NCBI RefSeq assembly: GCF_024721265.1
Contig: NZ_JAMXOC010000006.1
Span: forward strand, 1 to 64,000
Length of the DNA stretch: 64,000 bases
Reading direction: 5' to 3'
Source of the DNA: Ohessyouella blattaphilus
Lineage (GTDB): Bacteria > Bacillota > Clostridia > Lachnospirales > Lachnospiraceae
The translations under genes were made by a program, and so were the position numbers. The notes beneath the pieces were generated by a model. The model saw only the letters and a list, made by a program, of their open reading frames with translations. It ran no database searches and was not told the DNA's origin. Positions 19,168 through 23,921 of the stretch are shown one piece after another; positions within the stretch are counted from its first letter, which is position 1; the number at the start of each line of letters is the position of its first letter.

Positions 19168-20232
19168 CTAAACATGAAATATTTTCTTCAACTCATCCTC
19201 TTTTAAATCTGTACCGATTACGCATATTCTTCCGGTATAATCGGCTTTACCATCTCTTATTTCATACTCTTCAGGAACCAAGTCAAATTCTTTCCAAACG
19301 CCATCAGCACCAGCGACAATTCCTTTTGCTCTCAACACCTGGCCGTAAGTTTGGGTATTTGCCAAAGTCTTAAGCACTGCCTCTAACTCATCTAAGTCGT
19401 ATTTGTGAGGCGTTTCTTGACCCCAGCTCGTAAACACTTCATCCGCGTCATGATGGTGATGATCATGCTCATGGTGATCGTGACCACAGCCACAACTACA
19501 GCCTTCCCCATGTTCATGATGGTGCTCGTGTTCATGATGGTGCTCGTGTTCATGATGATGACCGCAACTACACCCTTCCTCGTGCTCATGATGGTGGTGT
19601 TCGTGATGGTGATGCTCCTGCTCAGTGAGCAAATCCTCTGGCTTTTTAGCGGTGTTAAGAATCGCTTCTTTTGTAAGCTCATCCCAAGGTGTAGTAATTA
19701 TCGCCGCCTCTTTATTATGTTCGCGCAAAAGGTTGATACAAGCTTCTAATTTCTCATCGTTTAGATCCTGGGTTCTGCTAACCACAATAACATCTGCATT
19801 CTCCACTTGATTTACGAAGAATTCGCCGAAATTTTTAAGATATAATTTCGCCTTCTTGCCATCTACTACGGCAATCTTATTCTCGATAACAATATCCGCT
19901 TCCTTCTGGACATCCTTTACGGCACCAACTACATCTGAAAGCTTACCTACGCCTGAAGGTTCGATAATTACTCGGTCAGGGTGGTATTTATCCAGCACTT
20001 CTAGTAGTGATTTGCTAAAGTCACCTACTAAAGTACAGCAAATACATCCGGAATTCATTTCTGTCACTTCAATCCCTGAGTCTTTTAAAAAGCCACCATC
20101 GATCCCGATTTCGCCAAACTCATTCTCGATTAAAACCAGCTTCTCTCCTTGGTATACTTTTTCAATTAACTGTTTGATGTACGTGGTTTTTCCTGCTCCT
20201 AAAAATCCGGAAATTATATCTACTTTTGTCAT
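19168..20232 (-). CDS. CobW/P47K-family metallochaperone GTPase with His-rich loop
   Basis: A 354-residue G3E GTPase. The P-loop is GFLGAGKTT, the metal-binding motif is GCICCTL (about residues 63-69) and G3 is EPSG. Residues 204-264 form a His/Glu loop interrupted by GCSCG motifs, encoded by partly tandem 18-bp units. A short CobW C-terminal domain follows. Such proteins (ZNG1/YeiR/ZigA-like) deliver zinc to client enzymes at the cost of GTP, and the loop would bind several metal ions. Nickel cannot be excluded. It heads a two-gene operon. Confidence 0.9.
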   Translation of the reverse strand: MTKVDIISGFLGAGKTTYIKQLIEKVYQGEKLVLIENEFGEIGIDGGFLKDSGIEVTEMNSGCICCTLVGDFSKSLLEVLDKYHPDRVIIEPSGVGKLSDVVGAVKDVQKEADIVIENKIAVVDGKKAKLYLKNFGEFFVNQVENADVIVVSRTQDLNDEKLEACINLLREHNKEAAIITTPWDELTKEAILNTAKKPEDLLTEQEHHHHEHHHHEHEEGCSCGHHHEHEHHHEHEHHHEHGEGCSCGCGHDHHEHDHHHHDADEVFTSWGQETPHKYDLDELEAVLKTLANTQTYGQVLRAKGIVAGADGVWKEFDLVPEEYEIRDGKADYTGRICVIGTDLKEDELKKIFHV

Positions 20233-20314: not shown

Positions 20315-21757
20315 TCACCTTAACGTCACCGCTTCTGGAACAGTTTTATAAAACATGGCGCGAGACAGCTTACTCTTTTCCAAATATCCATTTTTCTCAA
20401 GATTGCCTATTACTTTCTTTCTTAGATAAGTGGAATCGCTAACACCTAGATATTCAGCAATTTCCGTCACTTTACGAGCTTGATAATAGCAAAATGATAA
20501 TACCTTTTCGTCAAGATTTGTTCCATTTGGAACGGGAACAAATGTGAGCGTTGGTACACTACTATTTTCCACACCTTCTTCATATGTCAAATCAGGAAGC
20601 ACCAACGTAAAATGATCTGATGAAGAATAAATATATGGCCTATGTGACTCATTTGCGTCTTTATATTCTTCTACAATTTTATCAAACCCCGTCCCCGCCG
20701 CTTCCATAACATTACATGCCACTAAAACATCTGTAATTAGTTCATTTCTTCTTTTGGATATAATGCCCGATAAATCATATGTTTTCCCGAGCTTCTCTCC
20801 CCTATAAAATCCGCCTGGTGATGAAATTTCTAATCTATCCTTAAACATATCCACCTGAATTCTTGTCCCATCCAAATAATAGTCTCGATGAGCAACAGCG
20901 TTTATTACGCCCTCAAATAGAGCACGCTGAGGATACGCATCAATGTTTCTTCTCGAATCGGCTAATTTAACCAGCGAATGATTCATTCTTTGATTCACAA
21001 ACTCCATTGTATCAGTAATTGTAGATATAATATTCCCATTAAATCTATTGATAGTTACGATTCTTTCTGTTCCTTTATTAAAGCCAGAAAATACCGAACA
21101 CTGAACCCCTGTCTTTTTCCCTTTATAGTCATCTAAAAACAAAGTGGCTCCATTCAACAAATATCCCTCTTCATTGTAAAAATCCATAGACCTAAGCGCT
21201 TTCTCTTTAAGTTCTTGCCCATCATTATGAGCTGCATAAAAGGCTCGTAACATAGATATTTTATCTGGATTATATTTGATATCTGAAACCAGAATATCAT
21301 ACTGTGAATTCTTGCTTTTCACACTCATCTCTATAATTTCTTCATAGGTTGCACCATTCGTATATCCGTCTCGTCTCATAAAAATGGAAGGAATCTGTTT
21401 GTACTTTAAGATAATTGGCTTAACAAGCGACTCAAAAACTTGAACCCGAATAATAAAACGCTCACTATTTTTGATTTCATACCTGACAAACGAAACTTTC
21501 ATTTGTGGTCGCGGAGTCAAGTGCTCATTCACCTGATTATTAAAATAGTTTCGTTCATTATCTGCCTCTCTTCTACCAAACCCTATCAATTTATTGGTTT
21601 TATCTTCCACCCCAATATAAAAATCTCCTCCTGAAGCATTTGCAAAGCCGGCAATAGTCTTAAGCCACCCAACAACATCTTCACGATTTAATCTACTCTT
21701 ACATTCTAATTTGTCGTTTTCTAATTGTATATCGTCAATAATCTCTTCCAAATACAT
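20315..21757 (-). CDS. AlbA_2/Schlafen-type DNA-binding protein with RecG-like ATPase and wHTH regions
   Basis: A 480-residue protein. Residues 1-125 form an AlbA_2 (Schlafen AlbA) domain (LECKSRL at about 17-23, IAGFANASGGDFYIGVED). Residues about 270-390 are the HATPase_c_4/RecG C-terminal-like region with EGVINAVAHRDY and EAAGTGFDKI. A winged-helix ends the protein (about 415-480). These proteins are widespread putative transcriptional regulators, often near defence or mobile loci. The promoter lies within eight 11-bp repeats immediately upstream. Base composition is more A+T-rich than neighbours, hinting at transfer. The start follows GGGGGTGA. Confidence 0.88.
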   Translation of the reverse strand: MYLEEIIDDIQLENDKLECKSRLNREDVVGWLKTIAGFANASGGDFYIGVEDKTNKLIGFGRREADNERNYFNNQVNEHLTPRPQMKVSFVRYEIKNSERFIIRVQVFESLVKPIILKYKQIPSIFMRRDGYTNGATYEEIIEMSVKSKNSQYDILVSDIKYNPDKISMLRAFYAAHNDGQELKEKALRSMDFYNEEGYLLNGATLFLDDYKGKKTGVQCSVFSGFNKGTERIVTINRFNGNIISTITDTMEFVNQRMNHSLVKLADSRRNIDAYPQRALFEGVINAVAHRDYYLDGTRIQVDMFKDRLEISSPGGFYRGEKLGKTYDLSGIISKRRNELITDVLVACNVMEAAGTGFDKIVEEYKDANESHRPYIYSSSDHFTLVLPDLTYEEGVENSSVPTLTFVPVPNGTNLDEKVLSFCYYQARKVTEIAEYLGVSDSTYLRKKVIGNLEKNGYLEKSKLSRAMFYKTVPEAVTLR

Positions 21758-21780
21758 AGAATCACCCCCTAATATGAACT

Positions 21781-21865
21781 ACTTCAATGTTACTTCAATG
21801 TCACTTCAATGTCAACTTCAATATCACTTCAAACAAACTTCAATATCACTTCAATGTCACTTCAA
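21781..21865 (-). repeat. Eight-copy 11-bp operator-like array
   Basis: ACTTCAA (TTGAAGT on the minus strand) occurs at 21781, 21792, 21803, 21815, 21826, 21837, 21848 and 21859. All spacings are 11 bp except one of 12 bp. The intervening four bases are mostly TGTC or TATC. All copies face the same way and lie on one face of the helix. The array ends 24 bases before the AlbA_2 start codon. It is too short-unit for CRISPR and resembles iterons or a multi-site operator. Confidence 0.9.
21787..21815 (-). promoter_or_regulatory. Promoter embedded in the repeat array
   Basis: TTGACA (21810-21815) arises exactly where one repeat unit has an extra base. TAACAT (21787-21792) follows after 17 bp. The predicted transcript starts near 21780, leaving a short leader with the GGGGGTGA site. 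Protein filling the array would cover both hexamers, so autorepression is likely. Confidence 0.7.
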
Positions 21866-21874
21866 ACAAGCACC

Positions 21875-21925
21875 AAAAAAGAGCCGCGTTCTTGGGATTT
21901 TCTCCTAAGGACGTGGCTCTTTTTT
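21875..21925. terminator. Bidirectional terminator after hppA
   Basis: A long stem (GAGCC-CGT-CTT arms with G-U wobbles) is flanked by A6 on the left and T6 on the right (21875-21925). It ends hppA transcription on the minus strand and insulates the AlbA_2 promoter. Confidence 0.85.
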
Positions 21926-21938
21926 CCCTATTCAGTTG

Positions 21939-23921
21939 TTATAATAGGCCACCAATAGCTACAAAGAGTGGCGCAAAGACTAATGATACAATCGTCATCA
22001 GCTTAATGAGGATATTGATAGAAGGCCCTGAAGTATCTTTAAAGGGATCACCAACTGTGTCGCCCACCACGGCGGCTTTATGGGTTTCGCTTCCCTTGCC
22101 ACCATAATTATCCTCTTCGATATACTTTTTAGCGTTATCCCAGGCACCACCTGAATTGGACATAAAGATGGCCATTAATACACCCGTTACTAGGGTGCCT
22201 GCTAGCAGACCACCAAGGGCTTCCGTACCTAAGACGATACCGACTAAAAGCGGGGCTACCACGGCGATCACACCAGGTACTATCATTTCCTTTAAGGCGG
22301 CATTGGTAGAGATCGTTACGCAAGAAGCGTAGTCCGGTTTCTCGGTTCCTTTCATAATACCAGGCATCTCTCGGAACTGGCGGCGAACCTCGCCAATCAT
22401 CTGGTTAGCCGCTTTTGATACCGAATCCATCGTATAGGCGGAGAAAAGGAATGGCAGCATACCGCCGATTAGTAGGCCAATTACTACTTTTACATCTAGG
22501 ATATCGATCTTGGTAAGTCCTACTGCTTCTGAGTAAGAAACAAAAAGAGCTAAGGCCGTTAACGCAGCCGAGCCAATGGCAAATCCTTTACCAATAGCAG
22601 CTGTCGTATTACCAACGGCATCCAATTTATCCGTTATCTCCCGTACGCTTTTATCAAGACCAGCCATCTCCGCAATCCCACCGGCATTATCGGCAATCGG
22701 ACCGTATGTATCAACGGCGATGGTAATCGCTGCTGTGGAGAGCATACCAACGGCTGCTAGAGCAATACCATAAAGGCCCGTCGCTAAGTTGGCGACGAAG
22801 ATACCGCCGCAGATAAGCACAATCGGAAGGGCCGTAGAGCGCATACCCACAGCAAGACCGCTAATAATCGTGGTAGCGGCTCCCGTTTGGGACTGCTCAG
22901 AAATCTTCTTCACATAGCGATACTCAGAAGAAGTGTAGACTTCTGTTACTACACCGATTAGAAGACCGGCCGCCAAACCAGCAATAACAGCAATCGCTGC
23001 ACCAAAATCACCAAATAAGTAATTGCTAAAGATAAGCGCTACCACCACTACTAGACCACTGGACACATAAGTCCCGATTTTAAGGGCTTTATGAGGATCA
23101 CTGCCTTCTTTTCCTTTTACAAAAAAGGTAGCGATAATCGAAGCTAATAAACCAAGACTCGCAATGATTAACGGAAATAGCACGCCTTCTTCTTTATAAA
23201 ATAGCAAACCAAGGGTCACTGCAGAGACGATGGACCCTACATAGGACTCGAATAAATCGGCACCCATTCCCGCTACGTCACCCACGTTATCGCCCACGTT
23301 ATCCGCGATAACGGCAGGGTTTCTCGGGTCGTCTTCCGGAATTCCCGCTTCCACCTTACCCACGAGATCTGCACCCACATCGGCCGCTTTCGTATAAATA
23401 CCGCCACCGACTCTGGCAAACAGGGCAATCGACGAGGCCCCTAGGCTAAAGCCTGATAATACCTCCGGATTACCCGTAATATAATAGATTACGCTAACAC
23501 CGATAACGCCTAAACCGGCTACACACATGCCCATAACCGCTCCGCCGTTAAAGGCTACCGAAAGCGCTCTATTCATTCCGCTAAGACGAGCGGCATTGGC
23601 CGTTCTCACATTGGCGCGCACCGCAATCTGCATCCCAACATAACCGGCAACAGTAGAAAATAGAGCACCGCAAACAAAACAGATCGCCGTCACGATACTA
23701 CCGATACCTAGCCAAATGGCGAAGAAAAGCACAATCACAAACACCACCAGAATTTTGTACTCTGCTCGCAAAAAAGCACTTGCACCTTCTCGTATCGCTC
23801 GCGCGATCACTCTCATTTGTTCCAGCCCGGCATCTTCCCTCATTACCTTTGCCGCCAAATAAGCAGCAAAAATAAGGGCAAGAATCCCAATCACTGGAAC
23901 CATTGTCCATAATACATTCAT
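21939..23921 (-). CDS. hppA: Membrane-bound pyrophosphatase, K+-dependent type
   Basis: A 660-residue ion-pumping pyrophosphatase with about 16 helices. It couples PPi hydrolysis to export of H+ and/or Na+. The substrate-binding segments [20 protein letters not shown] and DNVGDNVGD are intact, as is [13 protein letters not shown] near the C-terminus. [10 protein letters not shown] has Ala where K+-independent enzymes have Lys, so it should need K+. Pumped-ion choice cannot be settled here. GGGAGG precedes the ATG. It is monocistronic with its own terminator and helps anaerobes save energy from biosynthetic PPi. Confidence 0.97.

Follow-up and report, generated by a model that had tools for sequence, protein, structure and literature searches.

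A TTGAAGT array interlocked with a promoter is the likely operator of the AlbA_2 protein encoded downstream

A bacterial AlbA_2 gene preceded by eight copies of one seven-letter word raises the question of what reads these words, and of why one step between them is a base longer than the others. The locus lies within 64,000 nucleotides of Ohessyouella blattaphilus DNA, hereafter called the window. On the minus strand, TTGAAGT occurs eight times between 21781 and 21865 (words 1-4 at 21865-21859, 21854-21848, 21843-21837 and 21832-21826; words 5-8 at 21821-21815, 21809-21803, 21798-21792 and 21787-21781). As read from the sequence, the steps are 11, 11, 11, 11, 12, 11 and 11 bp, with six pairs of exact words 11 bp apart, and the seven spacers are GACA, GATA, TTGT, GATA, TGACA, GACA and AACA. 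From the sequence, from TRF and from the arrays found before relatives, we propose that this array is an operator. It is followed by a 23-nt leader (21758..21780, minus strand, with a predicted transcript start) that carries a Shine-Dalgarno-like AGGGGGTG (21770-21763), and the ATG at 21757 opens a 480-aa ORF (20315..21757, minus strand). Upstream of the array lies an hppA-like gene (21939-23921, minus strand) with a terminator-like hairpin at its end; a hairpin followed by a T-run was recognized by eye at 21880..21920 (minus strand), and terminator scanners gave it no score. On the other side of the ORF, a CobW-like gene (19168-20232) has an 18-bp tandem repeat at 19511-19557, in a histidine-rich stretch.

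A promoter is written into the array. Its -35 hexamer, TTGACA (21810..21815, minus strand), is made of the last T of word 5 and the 5-nt spacer of the 12-bp step, and its -10 hexamer, TAACAT (21787..21792, minus strand), of the last T of word 7, a 4-nt spacer and the first T of word 8. The two are 17 bp apart and match the consensus at 10 of 12 positions. This arrangement accounts for the longer step: steps of 11 bp alone would yield a promoter spacer of 16 bp, and a single 12-bp step brings it to the preferred 17 (12+11 = 23 = 6+17). The first four words are all located entirely before the -35 hexamer, and the fifth overlaps it by one base. Taken alone, the promoter match is weak evidence, as 2 kb of sequence held 10 promoter-like sites where shuffles gave 6.9 (sd 2.5). 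What gives it weight is the conservation of the promoter in adjacent arrays, described below. A sequence-only reading of this DNA had reported the eight words with their single 12-bp step, the perfect TTGACA that this step creates, the TAACAT 17 bp further and the 23-base leader before the AlbA_2 start, and all of these were exact. An element acting at the RNA level was considered and discarded, nearly the whole array being upstream of the predicted transcript start.

The array stands out in its surroundings. TRF reported it with a period of 11, 7.6 copies and a score of 112, the top of the 8 rows obtained for the window. We also used a motif-blind chain score, which counts copies of one heptamer with at most 1 mismatch at steps of 10-12 in the 160 bp upstream of a gene. 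The array scored 8, against a maximum of 3 both in 60 dinucleotide shuffles and for the other 51 of the 52 genes scored in the window. Since the words are all identical and the spacers differ, the array is not a plain minisatellite. Elsewhere in the genome of O. blattaphilus, no further exact pair of TTGAAGT words at 11 bp was found, and we therefore rejected a regulon in this genome. Pairs with at most 2 mismatches numbered 28, the array included, versus 31 for the reversed control, that is, background.

Comparison of the DNA upstream of homologues was one of the checks named by the sequence-only reading, which had taken the array for a cooperative autoregulatory operator and had counted a lack of such arrays upstream of orthologues as a refutation. 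Relatives found by protein search at 62-100% identity, O. blattaphilus included, had an array in 10 of 10 cases (MT837636, at ≥62%, has no upstream DNA and was left out), and three relatives at 30-31% had arrays of other words. As arrays are there, the autoregulatory reading stands by comparison. In nine of the ten, the array contained TTGA[CT][AT]-17-TAnnnT; the exception was plasmid pCY360 of Butyrivibrio proteoclasticus, which carries a relative at 63% with an array devoid of the promoter pattern. Among the nine, the -10 hexamer ended exactly 29 nt before the start codon in five and 22-36 nt before it in the others. The weakest of the ten arrays, that of G769, is degenerate: only 2 of its words are exact, and its chain comprises 4. 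The ten also include a relative (86.5% over 89 aa) on a phage-labelled faecal contig. In the 65 units of the ten arrays, the 7 word positions held 1.55-2.0 bits and the neighbouring positions 0.12-0.50. Word conservation is inflated here, because these units were picked at ≤1 mismatch and the 43 adjacent arrays treated below by exact words, but spacing, position and promoter register are free of this inflation. Tandem sites near one helical turn apart thus lie over the gene's own promoter and are conserved with the gene.

The array and the gene also occur together across genomes. In 199 genomes of the family, that of O. blattaphilus included, 6 had an orthologue at 62-100% identity. The array pattern, defined as three TTGAAGT words with 4-5-nt gaps, was found in all 6, always beside the gene, and anywhere in the genome in 4 of the 193 without an orthologue (p about 3e-9). 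A reversed control pattern was found in 3 of the 199, including one genome with an orthologue. From a larger family sample of 397 genomes, which overlaps the first, came two more orthologues (80% and 77%) and a relative at 38%. At the level of the class (391 genomes), there was no orthologue at E ≤ 1e-70 except the window's own; the pattern occurred in 5 other genomes, one of which had a 31-residue gene remnant just downstream. The phylum sample (177 genomes) gave one further relative, array-free. Array-bearing orthologues were from Bacillota and Spirochaetota. Three relatives (81%, 62% and 59%) belong to genomes that had been selected for having an array, and the protein-found set excludes them; within 350 bp upstream, the first had 5 words, the second 4 and the third none directly upstream.

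One alternative is that a host regulator of 11-bp direct repeats, for instance of the OmpR/PhoB type, binds the array, the AlbA_2 gene being one of its targets. Response regulators acting on direct repeats do exist, PhoP, PmrA and AgrA being examples (PMC5859096), and arrays are present in genomes without the gene. This explanation is nonetheless very unlikely, because the O. blattaphilus genome has no second exact word pair, array and gene go together in the family sample, a different word is used in distant relatives and the AlbA_2 gene itself encodes a winged helix.

We then considered what is found when the pattern alone is searched for. A scan of contigs for three exact words at 11 bp returned at least 119 stretches holding at least 122 arrays, versus about 0.1 stretch expected by chance according to our own arithmetic, which ignores slippage repeats, and these do occur. 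At least 43 of the arrays adjoin an orthologue or a remnant of it. Among the matches listed, these comprise 31 genes near full length, 11 partial, cut or remnant ones, and one locus, L103, that ends at the gene and was counted as adjacent by inference. The at least 122 arrays further include 3 second arrays in orthologue loci and 12 in a single Caulobacter MAG; the rest, among the matches listed, lie elsewhere or at contig ends.

Promoter register is conserved in the adjacent arrays. Among the matches listed, TTGAC[AT] was present in 34 of the 43, and in 31 of these 34 TAnnnT followed exactly 17 bp on. In these arrays no TAnnnT was seen at other spacings from 14 to 20; among the 31, TTGAC[AT] began at the last T of a word in 30, and TAnnnT did so in all 31 (matches listed). 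The 12 remaining adjacent arrays listed failed the promoter pattern. As for the 67 other arrays listed, the Caulobacter MAG excluded, 12 had TTGAC[AT] and one had the promoter. This one, L118, heads a gene for a 564-aa protein, with an AlbA_2 gene 47 bp further; the latter is the 59% relative mentioned above, which is therefore the second gene behind that array. In G609 (locus L225, 288-1982), a 564-aa protein is encoded between array and AlbA_2 gene, and its N terminus suggests export; one promoter may serve both genes there. A terminator-like hairpin with a T-run was noted within 120 bp upstream of 11 of 42 adjacent arrays (matches listed), against 2.7 expected from mononucleotide shuffles, and the array-gene unit may insert behind terminators.

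These counts bear on the possibility that the array is a plain 11-bp slippage minisatellite with a fortuitous promoter. Such tandems do exist, since 21 of the 67 non-adjacent arrays listed had identical spacers. But identical spacers were found in just 2 of the 43 adjacent arrays listed, the array studied here combines eight identical words with differing spacers, and the promoter register is conserved. The counts largely refute this explanation, to which we give almost no credit.

Arrays away from the gene deserve a separate account. Besides the 21 plain tandems with identical spacers, the 67 arrays listed as lying away from an orthologue include 46 that are not of this kind. We probed 43 genomes, several of them MAGs of unstated completeness and most chosen for a non-adjacent array, and found an orthologue at ≥59% in 7, one being broken by a stop. 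Arrays therefore persist, or act, without an orthologue. At three loci (L079, L063 and L074), the gene beside the array is reduced to short pieces from its interior or its C-terminal part; these arrays are probably relics, and loss of the gene with retention of the array is plausible. Other cases were of a different sort. A Caulobacter MAG (JAQGIK01) had at least 12 modules of three TTGAAGT words, often TTTGAAGTTTGTTTGAAGTCGATTTGAAGT, behind TTGACCCCG-like DNA (L041, L059, L060, L080, L100, L116, L120, L132, L133, L137, L142 and L149). No AlbA_2 relative was detected in this MAG at E ≤ 1e-40, and its modules look like a separate repeat family or regulon. A Roseburia hominis genome and one further genome of the Lachnospiraceae (L049/L166 and L057/L164) had in common a three-word array, with no adjacent orthologue, and the DNA downstream of it (TTAGCACTTTTGTGAA). 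The Bacteroidales MAG JANXXY01 had 13 and 16 TTGAAGT words at contig ends (L039 and L077).

If the array is an operator, what in the AlbA_2 protein could read it? The 480-aa protein, defined by its ORF, Pfam matches and predicted structure, begins with a Schlafen AlbA_2 domain (aa 13-133, 21359..21721, minus strand; Pfam SLFN_AlbA_2, PF04326, 62.5 bits versus a cut-off of 25.3). This is followed by a putative ATP-binding HATPase_c_4 domain (aa 297-387, 20597..20869, minus strand; PF13749, 71.5 bits versus a cut-off of 26). At the C terminus, Pfam HTH_27 matched aa 428-472 with 17.9 bits, below its cut-off of 22.2. The 9 Pfam matches of the protein at E ≤ 1 included no MerR family, which sets it apart from the BldC family, and no receiver or OmpR-type domain. 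An AlphaFold2 model computed from a 43-sequence alignment (mean pLDDT 85.5, pTM 0.55) ended in a winged helix, at about aa 416-472 (20342..20512, minus strand), which structure alignment also indicated. It is composed of helices 416-422, 430-437 and 443-455 and of strands 459-464 and 467-472, so that both a helix-turn-helix and a wing are found in the model; helix 443-455 (20393-20431, minus strand) is the likely recognition helix. With VIA-align 2, residues of about 406-480 aligned with ArsR/MarR-type winged helices (Z about 9), and residues 1 to about 120 with Schlafen chains (Z about 10).

The N-terminal core resembles a nuclease. In a PDB profile search, E13, E18, K20 and D52 aligned with the ExxxxExK and GVxD of Schlafen chains (5yd0, 7fex). 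Within the 43 aligned rows, E13 was kept in 43, E18 in 42 and D52 in 37. We take these three residues to be the catalytic acids of Schlafen nucleases; all three being found, the protein is a putative Schlafen-type nuclease as judged from its sequence. PADLOC returned partial matches only, to an Argonaute-linked SIR2 model (37.1 bits, aa 237-369) and to CasR/CARF winged helices. In PHROGs, there was a near full-length match to a family annotated 'DNA helicase'.

If the winged helix reads the word, word and helix might be expected to change together, and distant relatives bear on this. One genome, reached via an array elsewhere in it, had two relatives (41% and 32%) with TTGAAGT words upstream. 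The three relatives at 30-31% with other words were L206, with seven AATGT at steps of 11, 10, 11, 10, 11 and 10 before TATAAT, L017, with seven AATGAT at steps of 10, 11, 10, 11, 10 and 10, and L207, with five AATGT at steps of 11, 11, 21 and 11. Their chain scores of 7, 7 and 3 were never reached in 60 shuffles. Upstream chain scores were at background for L214 (38%), for L221, the array-free relative of the phylum sample, and for 18 further relatives (27-30%); five partial matches (L032-L035 and L038) were excluded from this scoring. In the 43 aligned rows, the recognition helix kept S442 in 41, Y444 in 38 and R446 in 39. In L206 and L017, the two other-word relatives present in the alignment, position 442 is R, position 444 is R or S and position 446 is L. 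The differences in words and in helix residues fit a cognate reader, in a small sample in which arrays of other words come from three genomes.

Taken with the arrays before orthologues, this leads us to propose that the AlbA_2 protein, whose gene starts 24 bp further on, most probably has its cognate operator in the array, and that the array serves cooperative autorepression. Each TTGAAGT word would take one winged helix and the monomers would form a row. The single orientation of the words, on nearly one face of the helix, would place the copies of the protein head to tail. A pitch of 10.5-11 bp would keep the subunits on nearly one face, and the extra base would cost a small twist. The promoter is built from the letters of the spacers plus the terminal T's of the words, and, because words cover the -35 and -10 hexamers as well as the DNA before and between them, a filled array should exclude RNA polymerase, hence cooperative autorepression. 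Binding and its cooperativity, repression rather than activation, and any role of ATP in release are our inference. The protein might instead bind the array and activate its own promoter, in a positive feedback. In favour of this, four words are wholly upstream of the -35 hexamer and the fifth shares one base with it. However, words overlap both hexamers too, and a promoter with a 17-bp spacing and near-consensus hexamers would presumably need no activator, which makes activation unlikely.

The operator that we propose seems to travel with its gene. The hppA-like and CobW-like flanking genes are separated by about 105 bp in G801, a genome of the same genus, and this interval contains neither a gene nor a TTGAAGT word. 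This empty site indicates that the AlbA_2 gene is accessory. A conserved operon partner was looked for in 50 loci, among them 9 distant relatives and one duplicate of the window (L011). No neighbour family occurred in more than three orthologue loci (L012, L128 and L156, at differing positions), and two families found in 4 loci stem from distant relatives. The copy on a 777-kb Selenomonadaceae contig (L052) nested with a copy from the window's family (support 100/98) in a tree that omits five distant rows. Direct repeats of 27-78 bp surrounded the array-gene unit in 4 of the 43 loci scored (L052, L015, L092 and L064), these 43 including 8 array-free distant relatives; they look as if insertion had duplicated a flank. 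Collectively, the gene behaves as a stand-alone accessory unit travelling with its operator. A viral origin was considered and set aside: two single-protein queries found no relative in viral contigs, and a profile scan found 3 distant ones. Pieces of close relatives do occur on two faecal contigs that are labelled as phage.

Downstream of the gene, five loci (L062, L064, L112, L229 in G610 and L228 in G184) have a second, promoterless array with the same orientation. Lachnoanaerobaculum sp. OBRC5-5 has a single promoterless array. The DNA to its left matches that flanking the gene's array in G184, and the DNA to its right matches that flanking the second, promoterless G184 array, about 13 kb downstream. 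This state fits recombination between two arrays, or a starting point for integration at a single array. L136, L228 (G184 60800-76300) and L014/L135 are one Lachnoanaerobaculum region in three states: the gene and its array before a tetR-like gene; the same plus another array, which is promoterless and lies about 13 kb further on, before tetR; and a lone promoterless array that joins both outer flanks.

Could the arrays, then, be first of all the ends or recombination sites of a mobile element carrying the AlbA_2 gene, their regulatory look being secondary? In all five cases on orthologue contigs the second promoterless array is downstream and in the same orientation, the OBRC5-5 array joins the outer flanks that bracket about 13 kb and the gene in G184, and the 27-78-bp direct repeats surround the unit at four loci. 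Yet a second array is present in just 1 of the 6 orthologue genomes of the family sample and absent from the O. blattaphilus genome, and there is no neighbour family common to more than three orthologue loci. Moreover, homologous recombination of duplicated arrays accounts for OBRC5-5 with no special machinery, and the promoter register is hard to account for by element ends. We consider this explanation quite unlikely. The reason for the 12-bp step, the accessory insertion and the arrays without the gene all go beyond what the sequence-only reading had described.

A wider function can be put forward tentatively, as a doubtful but conceivable extension of the autorepression proposed above. The gene might be a self-contained mobile module of one gene that combines a Schlafen nuclease core with both an ATPase-like switch and a winged helix in a single chain, and that is silenced by a filament on its promoter array. 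A signal (phage, DNA damage, heat or nucleotide state) would break the filament, the gene would be derepressed and the effector freed. The operator word and the recognition helix would drift together, giving each clade a private address. We give this extension slightly more credit than we otherwise would because TrlG, whose two-domain architecture is alike, restrains growth.

How do this protein and its array compare with known systems? The comparisons below draw on the papers cited as far as excerpts were available. TrlG of Photorhabdus laumondii has AlbA_2 at 14-128 and HATPase_c_4 at 298-365, and, when intact, it limits growth at raised temperature (PMC7554251). It resembles the window's protein by these two Pfam domains at nearly the same places and by a sporadic, accessory distribution, and its example indicates that a protein built in this way can affect the cell (PMC7554251). 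In contrast, TrlG is proteobacterial, and its gene stands third in an operon of three genes, alongside a separate regulator gene, trlR (PMC7554251). The excerpts of the TrlG paper make no mention of 'operator' or 'direct repeats' (PMC7554251), nor do those of a paper on AlbA_2 genes on mobile elements (PMC10561277). A solved relative, DIP2311 of Corynebacterium diphtheriae (3lmm), aligned with a VIA Z of 23.0 over 352 residues, but at 17% identity and an rmsd of 15.9, with domains placed differently. Animal SLFN11, SLFN12, SLFN13 and SLFN14 match the core, at residues 1 to about 120, whereas the window's gene is bacterial and its product has a C-terminal winged helix, a predicted DNA reader.

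Regulators that bind repeats offer the other side of the comparison. BldC of Streptomyces binds head to tail and cooperatively to a variable number of direct repeats in promoters, as proposed here, but it is a MerR-like protein of 68 residues with 9-bp sites and a regulon (PMC5859096). Here, the steps are of 11 bp and precede the gene of the protein itself, the winged helix is ArsR/MarR-like and part of a 480-aa protein, and binding is predicted. HsdC of Mycoplasma gallisepticum has (GTGTTAN5)2 in its own operon promoter, 11 bp apart and partly over the core promoter, with binding demonstrated by EMSA; it differs in having two repeats and in being a C-protein homologue of a restriction-modification operon (PMC5282649). 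RptR represses its own promoter via three direct repeats, two of them over a -10 box, but these are 9-bp repeats, each with a palindrome, and the protein is a small homodimeric regulator of a defence island (PMC12255303). MraZ also binds short repeats in tandem, (AAAGTGKN3)3, spaced at close to one helical turn, and is of another protein family with fewer repeats (PMC5282649, PMC5138195). In the open-access literature, the best matches on AlbA_2, COG2865 or PF04326 included no paper on an operator for Schlafen/AlbA_2 proteins, and the general literature on repeat operators gave the analogues above, none of the AlbA_2 family. The proposed operator would make a 7-bp word at helical pitch a convenient DNA ligand for one subfamily of the AlbA_2/Schlafen proteins of bacteria, the arrays offer a way to locate sites by sequence alone, and the interlock of operator and promoter through spacer letters makes sense of the odd extra base. 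Array-binding autoregulators are thus already known, and what is new, within the open-access literature searched, is the proposal of such an operator for Schlafen/AlbA_2 proteins.
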